From the NCBI GenBank assembly GCA_902571865.1, contig CACGDO010000001.1, positions 332,315 through 396,314 on the forward strand: 64,000 nucleotides of DNA, given 5' to 3'. Numbering within the stretch: the first letter of the stretch is position 1; every line of letters starts with the position of its first letter. Under the pieces are notes generated by a model. That model worked only from the letters and a program-made list of their open reading frames with translations, was not told the origin of the DNA and did no database searches. The DNA comes from an uncultured Alphaproteobacteria bacterium (lineage in GTDB: Bacteria; Pseudomonadota; Alphaproteobacteria; HIMB59; GCA-002718135). Positions 54,451 through 64,000 of the stretch are shown here, piece by piece. The position numbers and the translations under genes were made by a program.

Positions 54451-57400
54451 TTAATTGCCAATACTAATATTTAATTTATTTATTAATCCATTATAATTTT
54501 GTCCTATTACATCTGGAGTTAAATCATTTACAGATACTGGATTTAAAGGCTTAATAGATAAGACGATCCTATTACTTTTTTCAATAAAGTTAGATAAAGC
54601 TTCTATAAAATCTTTTGCTAAGCCTTGGTCAATACCTAAAGTATTTGAGTATATATCCATTGATTGAATTACAAAATCTTTCAATTGTCCTGTTGTCATA
54701 TTTTGTTCATTTGCAACATAATCTAAAAGTTTATCTTTAAGTGAGTTATCATTTAGTGATATCGTTAACTCTTTTAATTTAGGAGAAGTCATTAAATATG
54801 TTAATAATGGGCCTCCTTGAATATTAAGTATTTTTGTATCCAAATCAATGAAATTAGAAGATACAGCTAAGGAAGCAGCATCAGTTATACCCAAATCTAA
54901 ATCAAATAAAATATTGTTTCTATTTGTATCCCATTCCCAACCTGATTTAAAATCAAATTTTATCTTTTCATAATCCAAATCATCTATTAAACCATCTAAG
55001 AATCCTAGACTTCCACTTATGTCACGGAATTCTTCGTAATTAAAATCAGCTCCATTAATTTCAAAATTAAAATTAGTTGGAACTTTGATGCTTTTATCAT
55101 CTCCAAAATAATCAAATTTTATATTATTTATTTTTGCATTGTCTAAAGAAAATATATTTGAATTATTTATTTCAGAATTGAAGTTAATAACTTCAAAATT
55201 ATCTAGAGATATAAATGAATTAAATATTTCTGAATAGTCACCACTTAAAAGTAACTCTTGGGATTCTATAGAGCTCAAAAGATCATAAGTAAAATTTTTA
55301 TCTAATTTAAAATCGCTTATTTTAAATTTTTCTAAATTGAATTGATTTGATTGTTCCTGTATTGAATAATCCTGAAGCTCAATGTTTTTAAAAGAAAATT
55401 CATCCCAACTAGTAATTTCAAAATATTTTAATGAGGCTGTTTCAGGCTCAGATAATTTAAAATCCTTTAAATGAATTTTATCAAATTTAGCACTTAAAAT
55501 TATACTTAGAATATTTTTTTCTTCATCATTAGCTATACTTGAATCTAAGATATTACTAATTTTATCGAAGTTGGGAAAATCAAGGTTTTTAATAGCAATT
55601 TCTCCTACAGATAAATCTGCAAGGCCGACAAATCCTTTATCAGTAAAACCATAAAACGTTATGCTTTCCGCAATCTTTCCAAAATATTGAAGTTCTGGAA
55701 GTTCACTGTATTCTTTTATATCACTAAGATATTCATATTTTTCATTTAATTTAAATAAATCATCAAGGTAATCTTTGTTAATTTTTTTAATTTGTAACCT
55801 ATCTAAAAGCAATGTGTTATTTATATCTCCAATATTAAAAATGTTAACCTCATTATCTCTACTAGAGAATTCTATTTTTTCAAAAGGTAAATCTAAGAAA
55901 TACAATAATTTAACAATTTGCTCTTGATAATCATTTTTTACATTATATTTTTCAAATATTTCTTCAAATTTTTTGTTCTGCTCTTCTAATAGTGCCTTTT
56001 TTTCCTTTTCAATTTCCTCAGCCTTCTTTTTTTCTTCTGGCTCAATAATTTTTTTATTAATAAATTGTTTTGTTTCTTCATTAGTTTTAGTTATTTTTTC
56101 AACATTTTCTGTAACAATTGAATCTTCTATTACTTTAATTTGATCTAATATTAATGGGGCTAACTCAGTAGTCAAATTTTCTTGTAAATATATTTTCAAC
56201 TCATCTTTAGTTTTGTTTAAATCTAAAATTGCTTTATCTGCTTGTTTTTTAAACTTGATTAGATCATCAATATTTTTTTTAGAATTTATTAAATCTTCAA
56301 TACTCTTTAATTCTTGAAGTGAAATTTCGGCCAGCTTTATTATATCGGTCCATTTTTGTAAATTAGCTGATTGCTGATTATTGACCATAATTAGCTTTAA
56401 TTCATTGATACTATTCTCTAAACCTAATATTGCTTCATTAATTTTATTTAATTTTTCATTTTGTGTAGTTTTTGAAATTTCATTAGAAAAATTGAGATAT
56501 AACTCGCTATTTTGACTAACGTAATCCTTAAACTCAAGTAATTTTGCTTTATTAGTAGAGTTTAAATCTCCATCAAGAATTGATCTAGTTGCGATAAAAT
56601 ATTCAGATATAATAATAATATCAAATTCGGCTGGGTTTTCTTTAATAAAACGTTCAAGATTTAATAAAAAATTTTGAGCTTTTTCTAAATCTGTTTCTTC
56701 AGTTAAAAGTGCTAATTTTTGATTTAATTCCTCTTGAGCTAATTTTTCTAACTCTTCCTTTTCTTTAAGTTTTTTTTCTTCTGCTAATCTTCTTTCTTCA
56801 GCTAATTCTTCTTCCTGTTGTTTTTTTTCATTAATAAGTCTCTCTTCTTCTTGTCTTTGATTTTCATTTTCCGCTATTATTTGAGTTAATTCTTTTTCTT
56901 TCTTTTCGTATAAATCTATTTTATCCATTAATGATAAGTTAATATCAGTAAGGGAATCAATTTCTTTATTGATATCAACTATAGAGTTCAAAAGGGTATT
57001 TTCTGTTTCTTTAAGTAATGATATTTCTTTTTCTAAATTAATATTTTCTTTAGTAGATATTTCCAATTTATTTGTAAAATTTTTAATTTGTTTAGTTAGT
57101 TCTTCATACTTAATTTCAAATTCAGAATTATTTTTATTTTTTTCTAATTCGGAATTTAAGCTAGCAATTTTTTCTAAATTAGTATTCTTTTCTTTTTTTA
57201 AGGTAGTTATAAGAGTATCTAAAGTTTCAATCCTTTGTGTGTAGTCATTATTAAGATTTTCTAAATTATCATTTCTTTCTTTAAAATTATCTATTTGGTT
57301 TCTAAGAGCTGATATTACTTTTGTATAAGAGCCAAGCTGTATTGCATCACTTGCTTCAACTTGATTAAGAAGTTTAATTACACATTCTCTTCTGCCCTGA

Positions 57401-57807
57401 CCACTGCCTTCGAATCCTTCAATACCATTTTCTAAATGTTCTATAATTGATTTATCACCTTTTGAAACAAATTGTAATTTCCAGGATTTTTTACTCTTAT
57501 TGTCAATCCATGAACCTTCACCATTGATTACTAATGATTTATTTGTTCTAGTTGCATTTAAAGTTGTTTGACCAATTTCTCCAAGCCTGTCTCCTGATCC
57601 GTTCCACCACCTACTGGCATGAAAACTGTGCTCAGTCGCAAAACCAAAAAAATTATCTCTGTAAGGTTTTTTTCCTTTTTTATCAGCACCACACTCTAAA
57701 TTTAATGCTAGAAGCAAAGATTTTTCACTTGCACCATAAACTGTATTTCCAAAAAAAATTATTGCAATAAATAATATTAATACATTTATTTTGCCAATTA
57801 TTTTCAT
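54451..57807 (-). CDS. large secreted coiled-coil protein of unknown function
   Basis: I do not recognise a characterised family. The 1118-residue protein has a signal peptide (1-25, ending TVYGA), a Trp- and Gly-rich N-terminal domain (about 30-155) containing three Cys or so, a long coiled coil (about 160-640) with a very Glu/Lys/Arg-rich stretch near 310-365, and a beta-rich C-terminal domain (about 640-1118). The latter repeats a pattern such as LEKFKISDFKL and LKYFEITSWDEF. It resembles the C-terminal part of uncharacterised alphaproteobacterial envelope proteins. A periplasmic structural role is only a guess. Confidence 0.75.
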   Translation of the reverse strand: MKIIGKINVLILFIAIIFFGNTVYGASEKSLLLALNLECGADKKGKKPYRDNFFGFATEHSFHASRWWNGSGDRLGEIGQTTLNATRTNKSLVINGEGSWIDNKSKKSWKLQFVSKGDKSIIEHLENGIEGFEGSGQGRRECVIKLLNQVEASDAIQLGSYTKVISALRNQIDNFKERNDNLENLNNDYTQRIETLDTLITTLKKEKNTNLEKIASLNSELEKNKNNSEFEIKYEELTKQIKNFTNKLEISTKENINLEKEISLLKETENTLLNSIVDINKEIDSLTDINLSLMDKIDLYEKKEKELTQIIAENENQRQEEERLINEKKQQEEELAEERRLAEEKKLKEKEELEKLAQEELNQKLALLTEETDLEKAQNFLLNLERFIKENPAEFDIIIISEYFIATRSILDGDLNSTNKAKLLEFKDYVSQNSELYLNFSNEISKTTQNEKLNKINEAILGLENSINELKLIMVNNQQSANLQKWTDIIKLAEISLQELKSIEDLINSKKNIDDLIKFKKQADKAILDLNKTKDELKIYLQENLTTELAPLILDQIKVIEDSIVTENVEKITKTNEETKQFINKKIIEPEEKKKAEEIEKEKKALLEEQNKKFEEIFEKYNVKNDYQEQIVKLLYFLDLPFEKIEFSSRDNEVNIFNIGDINNTLLLDRLQIKKINKDYLDDLFKLNEKYEYLSDIKEYSELPELQYFGKIAESITFYGFTDKGFVGLADLSVGEIAIKNLDFPNFDKISNILDSSIANDEEKNILSIILSAKFDKIHLKDFKLSEPETASLKYFEITSWDEFSFKNIELQDYSIQEQSNQFNLEKFKISDFKLDKNFTYDLLSSIESQELLLSGDYSEIFNSFISLDNFEVINFNSEINNSNIFSLDNAKINNIKFDYFGDDKSIKVPTNFNFEINGADFNYEEFRDISGSLGFLDGLIDDLDYEKIKFDFKSGWEWDTNRNNILFDLDLGITDAASLAVSSNFIDLDTKILNIQGGPLLTYLMTSPKLKELTISLNDNSLKDKLLDYVANEQNMTTGQLKDFVIQSMDIYSNTLGIDQGLAKDFIEALSNFIEKSNRIVLSIKPLNPVSVNDLTPDVIGQNYNGLINKLNISIGN

Positions 57808-60003: not shown

Positions 60004-61236
60004 ATGAACAAATTATTATCATTTTCATTATATGATGTTGGAAACTCCGTATTTCCAATGATTGTCATAGCAGCCCTAACATCAAGTTATTTTGTGAACA
60101 ATGTAGTTGATGATCCACAATATGGTACAGCTTTATGGCAATTCACAATTGGTATTACCGGTATAATAGTTGCTATAATAATGCCATACCTTGGAAAAAT
60201 TGCAGATAGTAGAGAAAATGGAAAAGTATTTTATTTAAGATTATTTTCAATATTATGCATTATTACAATTGGTTGCTTTTTTCTAATTAAACCTTCATCA
60301 AGTTATACTTACTATGCCTTATTAGTTTTATTAATTAGTGGAATTACTTACGAGATTTCTAATAGTTTTTATAATGCTACTCTAAAAAACTGCTATCCTA
60401 CTAATCTTACCCTAGGTTCAGGAGTTGGTTTTGGCTCTGGATTTATTGGTGGAGTCGTAATTTTTTTCTTACTTTTGCAATTTTTTATTTTACCTGAAAA
60501 AAATATTTTTAATTTGAATAAAGAAAATTTTGATCATATTCGTTTTGTTCATATAGTATTAGCTTTCTGGTTTTTACTTTTTGCTTTGCCATTATTGTTT
60601 TTGTCTAACATTAATCATATTGCTGAGAAATACACACATAAAACCTTTCTTGAAATTAAATCTTTAATTTGGAAAGATAAATTAACTAATACTGGGCGTT
60701 TTTTATTAGCAAGACTTTTTTATATTGATGGTTTGGTTATTATTACAACTACGATAGGTATTTTTGGAACTTCTGTAATGGGATTATCTTTACAACAATT
60801 ATTAGTTCTTGGACTACAAGCTAACATCAGTGGTGCAATAGGTTGTTACTTATTTGGATATTTAATTAAAAATGATAAATTAACAATAATTTTAACTTTA
60901 ATTGTTTTAATTTTTTTAATCTTATTAATTTCCATAAATACAAATCAATCAATGTTTATATTATATGTTATAATAGCTACTTTTTTTACAGGCCCACTTC
61001 AAAGCTCGAGCAGAGTTGTTATGGCTAATTTAACTGACGATAACAGACAAGGTTTTAGTTTTGGAATATTTACTCTATCTGGGAAAATTACAGCTTTTTT
61101 AGGTCCAATTTTAGCTTCTGCTTTAACATTTTTAATATCTCAGCGAGTTGGTTTTGGTTTTTCAATAGTGTTATTAAGTTTAGGATTATTTCTAATGATT
61201 GGGGTTAGTTATAATAGTGTAAAATCAAAAACTTAA
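60004..61236 (+). CDS. MFS transporter, UMF1/Atg22-like
   Basis: A 410-residue membrane protein with about 12 predicted helices. The N-terminal SFSLYDVGNSVFPMIV resembles the LYDWANSAF motif of the UMF1 family, and the loop containing GKIADSREN matches the MFS loop 2-3 signature. A segment GPLQSSSRVVMANLTDD in the second half is also typical. The substrate is unknown. The gene overlaps the convergent M50/HlyD gene by 12 bases. Confidence 0.8.
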   Translation: MNKLLSFSLYDVGNSVFPMIVIAALTSSYFVNNVVDDPQYGTALWQFTIGITGIIVAIIMPYLGKIADSRENGKVFYLRLFSILCIITIGCFFLIKPSSSYTYYALLVLLISGITYEISNSFYNATLKNCYPTNLTLGSGVGFGSGFIGGVVIFFLLLQFFILPEKNIFNLNKENFDHIRFVHIVLAFWFLLFALPLLFLSNINHIAEKYTHKTFLEIKSLIWKDKLTNTGRFLLARLFYIDGLVIITTTIGIFGTSVMGLSLQQLLVLGLQANISGAIGCYLFGYLIKNDKLTIILTLIVLIFLILLISINTNQSMFILYVIIATFFTGPLQSSSRVVMANLTDDNRQGFSFGIFTLSGKITAFLGPILASALTFLISQRVGFGFSIVLLSLGLFLMIGVSYNSVKSKT

Positions 61237-63327
61237 TTCTCTAATTAACACAGCATAAACATACTTATAAATTCGTTCTGCAAAACTAGTTGGATAAATT
61301 GCTATATTCACTGAACCTAACATTTTCTGATCCACTTTAGTTATATCTCCTACTAAGTTCATACTTATTTGATAATAGGCTTGTTCAGATATTATATCTG
61401 AACTAGAATTTTCTCTTGCAGCAATAGGCCCACTATACAATGATGTAACAATTGGAAAGAGATTAAAAGTATTTACTGGTGATTTACTTATAGATTTAAT
61501 TGATAATGGAATTTTAGGACTATCTATGTGTGAGCTAATAAAAAATAAATCTTTTGTGCGATCTATTTTTGCAATATTTTTTTCAGAAATAAAAGCAAAA
61601 ATTGTTTGTGTATCTTTATCAACCAGAGACAGTAAAGGATCTTCTTGATTAACCCATTGGTCTTTCTTAAACTTTTCTAAAAAAGTAATTTCAGAATTGA
61701 AAGGAGCCCTAATATTTAAGGATGATTTTATTTTATTATAATTTAAGATTTCAGTTTCTAGCTTATTTTTTTTACTTCTAAGTGATAATAATTGCTCTCT
61801 ATTTATTTTACTTTGTAATGCATTATTAATTTGTAACTCAGCTAATTCAAGCTTTCCAATTGTTTGATTAATTTTATAATTTAGTGATGGTGAAGTTAGC
61901 TCAATAAGAAGTTGATGTTTTTGAACCTTGCCACCCTCTTCTATATGTACTCTTTTTATTTGTGCTTCTTCAGGAGCATATATAGATATAAAATTTTCTG
62001 ATTGGAGAATAGCTGGAATTTTTTGATAATTTTTCCAAGGATAAAAGAATAGAAAAAATAAAACTGAAATAAATAATATAGTTCTAATAAAATTAAAAGA
62101 GAGTCCAATATCGCTACGCATTTTCCACCATAAAGAAATTTCTCTATAAATAGGTAGACAAATAAACCAAATTATTTCTACAACAAATAAAATAATTCCT
62201 AATACTTTAAATGTGTAATGGTAAACTAATATTGCGATCCCAATAAATAAAAAGAAACGATATATCCATGTTGACCAAGCATAAAAAATTAAAAAATTTA
62301 TTTTATTAGCATTCATTTTCTCTGGTTGTTCGTGATTAAGACCAAAAATAATTTGTCTTAATTTCCATTTAGCAAGCGAGAAAGCACGTGGTTGTAAATT
62401 TTCTACTCTTAAAAAATCTGCCAAAACATAATATCCATCAAACCTCATAAAAGGGCTGATGTTTATCAATAAAGAAGAAACCCAACTTGTAGTAGCAATA
62501 AAAAATGCAATACTTTTTAATGTACCTGGCTCTAAAATAGACCAAAAAAAAGTTGCCAATAACGCAAGGTGTAATTCTGTTGAAATACCTGCAAAATTAA
62601 TACGTAATCTGTTACTATAATCTCTCAATCTCCAAGCATTAGTGTTATCTGTATATAAAAAAGGAAAAAAGACAAGAAATGCAATGCCCATAGAATTGAC
62701 ATTGCATCCATAGTTCTTTGCAACATATGCATGACCAAATTCATGAATTGCTTTTACTAATACAAGTGAAAATGCATAAAATATAAATCCGTTCCAATTA
62801 AAAAAATAAAGAAAAGTATTAATAAATTGATCCCAATTTTGGATTACAAAATAAATACCAATTAAACCTAAAACATAGACAATATAACGAACTAATTTTG
62901 AACCAATTACTTTCGCAAACATTAAAGTACTATCTAAAAAAGTATCTGGTTTTAATAGAGGGATTTTAAAGAATAAGTAATTATGAATTATTGATAAAAT
63001 GAAATGTTTTTTCTGATTTTTATATTTTTCAATTAAGAATTTTGTATCTTCAGAATTATGATGGGATATAAGATCATTTACTTTTAAAAAAGAAATAAAA
63101 TCGTTTAATTCTTCTTCTTTTAAGTTAACTCCTTTTTGTTCAACATTTTTTATAAAAGTTTTAGTATCTACATCGGCATTCCAATAATTGAGTAATCGGA
63201 ATGCATTTAATCCTATTGTAAAATATTTATTTGTTAAAGTATCAAATAGTAACCAAGTTGGAGAGCCATCTTCCAATGGTGTTCCCTCAAATAATTGTAA
63301 ATCTTCTCTAATTGATGGCGTTAACAT
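61225..63327 (-). CDS. PqqD-like / M50 zinc metallopeptidase / HlyD fusion membrane protein
   Basis: A 700-residue protein of the putative peptide zinc metalloprotease type. Residues about 1-95 resemble a PqqD-like winged-helix domain. About 110-430 is membrane-embedded with site-2-protease zinc ligands HEFGH (His195, His199) and, later, RFDGYY with Asp297. After a membrane segment near 415-430 comes a periplasmic lipoyl/HlyD domain (about 445-650) with an alpha-helical hairpin and AP-type barrel. It follows the upstream HlyD gene directly on the same strand, so the two act together, probably in export of a peptide or protein. Confidence 0.82.
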   Translation of the reverse strand: MLTPSIREDLQLFEGTPLEDGSPTWLLFDTLTNKYFTIGLNAFRLLNYWNADVDTKTFIKNVEQKGVNLKEEELNDFISFLKVNDLISHHNSEDTKFLIEKYKNQKKHFILSIIHNYLFFKIPLLKPDTFLDSTLMFAKVIGSKLVRYIVYVLGLIGIYFVIQNWDQFINTFLYFFNWNGFIFYAFSLVLVKAIHEFGHAYVAKNYGCNVNSMGIAFLVFFPFLYTDNTNAWRLRDYSNRLRINFAGISTELHLALLATFFWSILEPGTLKSIAFFIATTSWVSSLLINISPFMRFDGYYVLADFLRVENLQPRAFSLAKWKLRQIIFGLNHEQPEKMNANKINFLIFYAWSTWIYRFFLFIGIAILVYHYTFKVLGIILFVVEIIWFICLPIYREISLWWKMRSDIGLSFNFIRTILFISVLFFLFFYPWKNYQKIPAILQSENFISIYAPEEAQIKRVHIEEGGKVQKHQLLIELTSPSLNYKINQTIGKLELAELQINNALQSKINREQLLSLRSKKNKLETEILNYNKIKSSLNIRAPFNSEITFLEKFKKDQWVNQEDPLLSLVDKDTQTIFAFISEKNIAKIDRTKDLFFISSHIDSPKIPLSIKSISKSPVNTFNLFPIVTSLYSGPIAARENSSSDIISEQAYYQISMNLVGDITKVDQKMLGSVNIAIYPTSFAERIYKYVYAVLIRELSF

Positions 63328-64000
63328 TTATAATCCAAATGTTTGTCGTAGGAAAATAATTGGTTTTCGAAAAAGATAAAAATAGAGTCTAACCTGATCA
63401 CCATAAATTTTTGCTGAACCTCTTAATCCAATTCTTGGATATATATTATCTGCAATAAGCTTAGCTGTAACACGGTAAGCTAATATATTCTGCGATGTCA
63501 TTTCTGGTTCATAAGAAAATTTCATTACTCTTGCTTGTAAAACATTAAGTGGATCTGAATCTAAATAGATATTCACTTTTGCATCTCTTTTAATAGTGAT
63601 TGAATCCTTTACAGGAACCATAATCTCTACTAAAATTTTATTTGGATCAGCTATGGTCATTATTGTTTCTCCAATTTGAAAAGGCTTACCAATAATGAGA
63701 GACTTATCTTTTAAAATAGCTATACCATTAGCAGGTGAAACAACCAAAGTTTTATCAAGTAAAATTTTTTGATAAAGAGTTTTTTCTTTTGCTAATTTAA
63801 TTTGCCCCTGTAGTCTTGCAAGCAACGCTTTATCTTCCGAACTATTAAAAGAAGATTGTTGAGCCTGTAACAATTCAGTCTCAATTATTCTTAATTCTTG
63901 AATTGACAATTCATAATCATTTTGTAACTGTGTTTTTTCAAGTTGTATAATTGGTTGATTGATTTTAATTACTTCATTATTTTGAATTAGAACTTTTTGG
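63328..64000 (-). CDS. HlyD-family periplasmic adaptor (5' end beyond window)
   Basis: The reading frame is open from the window end (base 64000), and the first visible codons give VLIQNNEVIKINQPIIQLEK, a typical biotinyl-lipoyl half of an HlyD protein. A coiled-coil hairpin follows, then VVSPANGIAIL and the second lipoyl half, and a beta-barrel with GLRGSAKIYG. The C-terminal ends in LFRKPIIFLRQTFGL, perhaps a membrane-associated helix. Its stop is immediately before the M50 protein's start codon, so the pair is an operon. The 5' end is missing. Confidence 0.85.
   Translation of the reverse strand, partial: QKVLIQNNEVIKINQPIIQLEKTQLQNDYELSIQELRIIETELLQAQQSSFNSSEDKALLARLQGQIKLAKEKTLYQKILLDKTLVVSPANGIAILKDKSLIIGKPFQIGETIMTIADPNKILVEIMVPVKDSITIKRDAKVNIYLDSDPLNVLQARVMKFSYEPEMTSQNILAYRVTAKLIADNIYPRIGLRGSAKIYGDQVRLYFYLFRKPIIFLRQTFGL

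Follow-up and report, generated by a model that had tools for sequence, protein, structure and literature searches.

A PqqD-like/M50/HlyD fusion protein linked to tagged giant proteins in a candidate TolC-type export cassette

Introduction

Four described systems or annotations share parts with the locus considered here. The giant-adhesin T1SSs (LapBCE/LapA, SPI-4/SiiE) resemble it in that a single locus encodes a TolC-type channel, an HlyD-type adaptor and a giant, repetitive protein of the cell surface. They differ from it in having an ABC exporter of the HlyB/LapB type, which the present cassette lacks, whereas the cassette has three adaptors (one fused to a RiPP recognition element [RRE] and an M50 protease) and a conserved N-terminal tag on its giant protein. 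EpeP/YydH and the daptide M50 proteases have a comparable M50 core with an HExxH motif, and the corresponding profiles (NF041824 and NF058609) match the present family below cut-off. However, the presumed substrate of the cassette is thousands of residues long, and its protease is one part of a fusion that also contains an RRE and an adaptor, and is accompanied by TolC in a two-membrane envelope.

PqqD and other RREs are similar in fold and in profile to the N-terminal domain of the fusion protein described below, but here the domain is joined to a membrane protease-adaptor, and its counterpart is a tag carried by giant proteins, not a short precursor peptide. Finally, LEPR-XLL (NF012209) and DUF4347 (PF14252) correspond to the tag and to the N-terminal domain of the giant, respectively. 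The literature searched gives no function for either, and the open-access literature searched contains no description of the cassette.

Here, we examine the locus in a window of 64,000 nucleotides (the whole stretch of DNA that was analysed, G000:C1:332315-396314, on a contig that ends at 403055), in the remainder of the same genome and in related genomes.

The fusion protein

The open reading frame (ORF) at 61225-63327 is real and present as a single copy in its own genome. The original prediction that it joins a PqqD-like domain, an M50 protease (motifs HEFGH and RFDGYY) and an HlyD adaptor in one polypeptide is confirmed by Pfam, hhalign, structure modelling and invariant residues. The features are as follows (window coordinates):

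61225..63327, minus strand: RRE (PqqD-like)/M50/HlyD-adaptor fusion, 700 aa (ORF, Pfam, model)
63058..63327, minus strand: PqqD-like RRE domain, residues 1-90 (hhalign to PqqD, PDB fold matches)
62113..62910, minus strand: M50 membrane core, residues ~140-405 (PF02163 over cut-off, model helices, hydropathy)
62731..62745, minus strand: zinc motif HEFGH, residues 195-199 (H195, E196 and H199 invariant in 67 relatives)
62431..62445, minus strand: RFDGY motif, residues 295-299 (RFDGYY, 295-300; R295, D297, G298 and Y299 invariant in 67 relatives)
61288..62034, minus strand: periplasmic adaptor domain of the MacA/HlyD type, residues ~432-680 (fold match to MacA, PF13437)

Both the protease (PF02163, Peptidase_M50; 39.6 bits against a cut-off of 27.2) and the adaptor (PF13437, HlyD_3; 40.7 bits against 22.2) are recognized by Pfam. 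The fusion has the features of peptidase family M50, namely HExxH and a distal Asp in a membrane core: H195, E196, H199 and D297 show no variation in the 67 aligned relatives, and Asp297 is presumed to be the third zinc ligand. The top NCBIfam match is NF041824 (daptide protease), with scores of 132-173 bits that lie below the curated cut-off of 300; relatives of the fusion also match NF058609, again below cut-off. No relative was found in the viral contigs searched.

In the full-length model (pLDDT 85.8), the predicted adaptor domain matches MacA (Z 15.9, rmsd 5.7, 219 residues). Because this domain filled the list of PDB matches, the N-terminal domain was modelled separately (pLDDT 88.9). 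Its best matches were leader-bound lasso B1 (Z 8.7), TbiB1 (8.4), TigE (8.2) and PqqD (8.0), followed by TruD and MccB, and the closest structures to the model are thus mostly RiPP leader-recognition elements. When aligned by hhalign to 19 PqqD proteins, the domain gave a probability of 95.7% (E 9.4e-9). It has both the winged-helix-like RRE fold and profile similarity to PqqD, and the predicted PqqD-like fold is therefore present. The domain is too diverged for a Pfam PqqD call in the fusion's own sequence; across the fusion family that signal is weak (6 of 67 members, best E 0.0043), and a PDB sequence search with the N-terminal profile returned nothing relevant.

The locus beyond the window edge

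A second HlyD protein had been placed directly upstream of the fusion. It is indeed there, but the part inside the window is only a fragment of a 443-aa protein that starts outside it:

63328..64000, minus strand: second HlyD adaptor, C-terminal 223 residues (remainder beyond the window end, L002)

A GAF domain was detected in 10 of 36 relatives of this protein (GAF-like N-terminus). Beyond it lie a third adaptor, of the RND type (259 aa), and a cadherin/VCBS-type repeat protein, of which the C-terminal 1,795 residues are present and which is open at the contig end. Another contig of the same genome (C13, L112) opens with the N-terminal part of a giant (1,045 residues), which reads LEPRIMFDGAAV and continues into DUF4347; this gene is divergent from a 660-aa TolC-like gene. 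The giant of this genome scores over the cut-off for DUF4347 (PF14252) and for LEPR-XLL (NF012209; 19.4 bits against a curated 17). Order relatives with long contigs have an unbroken gene order and a giant of 2,274-4,808 residues, and we infer that the two pieces found here belong to a single gene broken by its own repeats.

Extension past the window edge, which had been suggested as a check, together with contig C13 yielded a TolC-like gene and a giant repeat protein, both recurring across families, but not the small precursor peptide that had also been envisaged. The TolC genes at relatives' loci contain PF02321 (OEP). As regards a C-terminal secretion signal, the C-termini of the giants look conserved within the order.

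Some minor features may be recorded here. TolC-like proteins of the order (L112:3145-5124; L028:1977-4451) have an Ig-like (He_PIG) C-terminal extension that resembles the C-terminal region of the giants, and one relative's TolC-like protein additionally has a SPOR domain. Inside the window, at 54451-57807, a 1,118-aa coiled-coil protein has a signal-like N-terminus and matches no Pfam family over cut-off.

A five-gene cassette and its distribution

The cassette consists of five genes, encoding the giant, TolC, the RND adaptor, HlyD and M50-HlyD, and is found in self-contained form on plasmids of Azospirillum, Kosakonia, E. coli and Burkholderia. Of 110 loci, 94 have a GAF-type HlyD gene, which shares the strand of the M50 gene in every case and directly adjoins it in most; such synteny counts are lower bounds because ORF calling in GC-rich genomes hides some genes.

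Full-length relatives of the fusion occur in 59 of 299 genomes of the phylum and at no fewer than 583 loci (i.e. at least 583) in the genome collection, including those of Nitrospira, Aliarcobacter, Pseudomonas and Pectobacterium. The cassette is present in hundreds of species and on plasmids: similar pairs, which the original prediction placed in other marine bacteria, are not limited to these. It was found in 22 of 5,426 complete E. coli genomes, mostly plasmid-borne. Closer to the present genome, M50-HlyD matches come from 4 of the 37 genus genomes and from 14 of the 24 in a neighbouring family (one match is weak and partial, and many of these genomes are incomplete), and the cassette is an accessory trait across this set (G000-G060).

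On pMSR-1 (Magnetospirillum), the partner beside the export genes is short and has no tag. On three plasmids (L103, L104 and L106), genes with a tail fiber annotation adjoin the cassette or stand near it.

An N-terminal tag on the giant proteins

At group I loci (a divergent group II is treated below), the tag LE(P/Q/S/A)RxxFD(G/A)A or a close variant is found in 52 of 54 DUF4347 giants; the remaining two are one with LERRIAFDAA and one fragment. Because the pattern was drawn up by eye from the very sequences that were then counted, this proportion is a measure of conservation and no independent test. Two other results are independent of the fit, namely the background count (none of the 1,489 other ORFs has the tag) and the co-occurrence of NF012209 with the M50 protein. 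Of 299 genomes, 71 have the M50 protein, and 40 of these have LEPR matches in frames of at least 400 aa, compared with none of the 228 that lack it (Fisher 1.5e-30, a value that ignores the kinship of the genomes). The LEPR profile is insensitive, leaving 31 cassette genomes with no match that passes the filter. It is also short and misses some FDAA-type tags. Among the genus and order relatives, LEPR is found in 17 of 61 genomes, all of them among the 18 with an M50-HlyD match (in one, G057, this match is weak, partial and at a contig end), and in none of the 43 without.

DUF4347 occurs in 54 of 59 group I genomes vs 19 of 240 others. We considered it as the export tag and rejected it: six cassette giants without a DUF4347 match still have the tag, and in genomes without the cassette the tag is absent from every N-terminus of a DUF4347 protein that was inspected. 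Judged from sequence, DUF4347 is dispensable, and it is LEPR that is tied to the M50 fusion. Separately, DUF4347 (L108:1501-1992) is weakly similar to Peptidase_C80 (E 0.005) with the His and Cys motifs kept, which suggests that this domain of the giants is caspase-like and may process itself.

A candidate export system and its alternatives

We read the cassette, with a probability of roughly 0.6, as a TolC-type system that is dedicated to the export of one giant surface protein and depends on an N-terminal tag. The observations behind this reading are the parts and how they are linked genetically, the tag and the way it co-occurs with the fusion, the conserved zinc-site residues and the RRE and adaptor folds; from them we infer that the tag is bound, that cleavage and export take place, and in which order. 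The giant would present its short tag, LE(P/Q/S/A)RxxFD(G/A)A, to the PqqD-like domain of the M50 fusion, which would bind it in the cytoplasm, in the way that RiPP leaders are bound by related domains. The membrane-embedded M50 core would then cut the tag region, gate passage or do both, and the three adaptors (the M50 fusion, the GAF-type HlyD and the RND-type protein) would bridge the periplasm to the TolC-like channel. The presence of TolC and of a giant repeat protein supports the earlier proposal of recognition, cleavage and export across the envelope, of which cleavage and export stay at the level of prediction. A precedent is the M50 protease EpeP, which is thought to both cleave and export the epipeptide EpeX (PMC10885120). 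Adaptors and TolC alone give no account of the energy for export.

If this reading is correct, the link to the cassette provides a candidate function, open to direct test, for the LEPR-XLL tag and for the PqqD-M50-HlyD fusion, both so far annotations without an explanation, in hundreds of species of which some can be cultured. It would also suggest that bacteria select some of their largest proteins with a recognition domain taken over from the biosynthesis of small peptides. How these giants would be moved without a dedicated ABC exporter is a question that follows from it.

The original prediction had put the missing transporter ATPase down to the end of the window. This explanation does not hold; it is the cassette itself that lacks one: the annotations of the plasmid cassettes include no ABC exporter, and in a crude motif scan none stood out beside the cassette at other loci. 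With a TolC-type channel in the locus and HlyD-type periplasmic adaptors, the outer parts are T1SS-like, yet a defining feature of a T1SS is lacking because no dedicated ABC exporter (HlyB/LapB type) was found. The cassette could be an accessory to an ordinary T1SS, contributing adaptors, channel and tag reader while a general ABC exporter encoded elsewhere moves the giant. In favour of this, TolC, HlyD-type adaptors and giant repeat proteins are each a hallmark of T1SSs; nearly all of 27 cassette genomes have some ABC exporters; and 11 of the 27, but no more, score over cut-off for an LssB-type T1SS exporter, which might help in trans there. Against this, the exporters of three order relatives (G040, G042 and G046) are only one of the MsbA type plus, in some, a PglK-like flippase, the plasmid cassettes bring no ABC exporter with them, and the conserved tag is N-terminal. 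We consider the accessory role unlikely.

Alternatively, the giant might cross the inner membrane by another route, with the fusion only cleaving the LEPR region to anchor or free it (compare LapG acting on LapA). This idea, which we regard as improbable, would suit the invariant HExxH and the removal of leaders by M50 proteases in RiPP pathways (PMC10885120), but cleavage alone does not need a protease fused to one adaptor and linked to two more and to TolC, and by inspection no Sec-type signal is evident ahead of the charged tag. That the export substrate is a small modified, RiPP-like peptide and the giant a neighbour of unrelated function is very improbable, since, typical as RRE domains and M50 proteases are of RiPP pathways, no precursor or modifying enzyme was seen in the cassettes at the plasmid loci, and giant and cassette co-occur across the phylum with matched tags.

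Two tag/machine pairs

A divergent group of M50 proteins (group II; about 22-27% identity) adjoins large frames that are mostly 4,000-15,000 aa long. A different tag, LExRxLLS(A/G)(D/E), is present in 12 of 14 adjoining giants, and in one group II M50 frame (G108) the N-terminus scores above the Pfam PqqD cut-off. Several genomes have both groups, and in one of these (G310) both tags were read. That tag and reader change in parallel is, at the sequence level, the best evidence for their putative interaction.

The tag-dependent export reading may extend to an unrecognized class of secretion system, ABC-exporter-free and dependent on N-terminal tags. In it, a fusion of an RRE, a site-2-type protease and an adaptor would select giants and hand them on to TolC, and two or more distinct combinations of tag and machine would exist, side by side in some genomes. 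We offer this wider proposal tentatively, at a little less than even odds.

A SapC-family gene (PF07277, E 2e-76 and 6e-75; L130:19199-19999 and L101:5745-6590) adjoins either the M50-HlyD gene of group II or the partner gene of the GAF-HlyD type. In Campylobacter fetus, SapC is known from the S-layer secretion locus, and the SapC-family protein may be a partner of group II.
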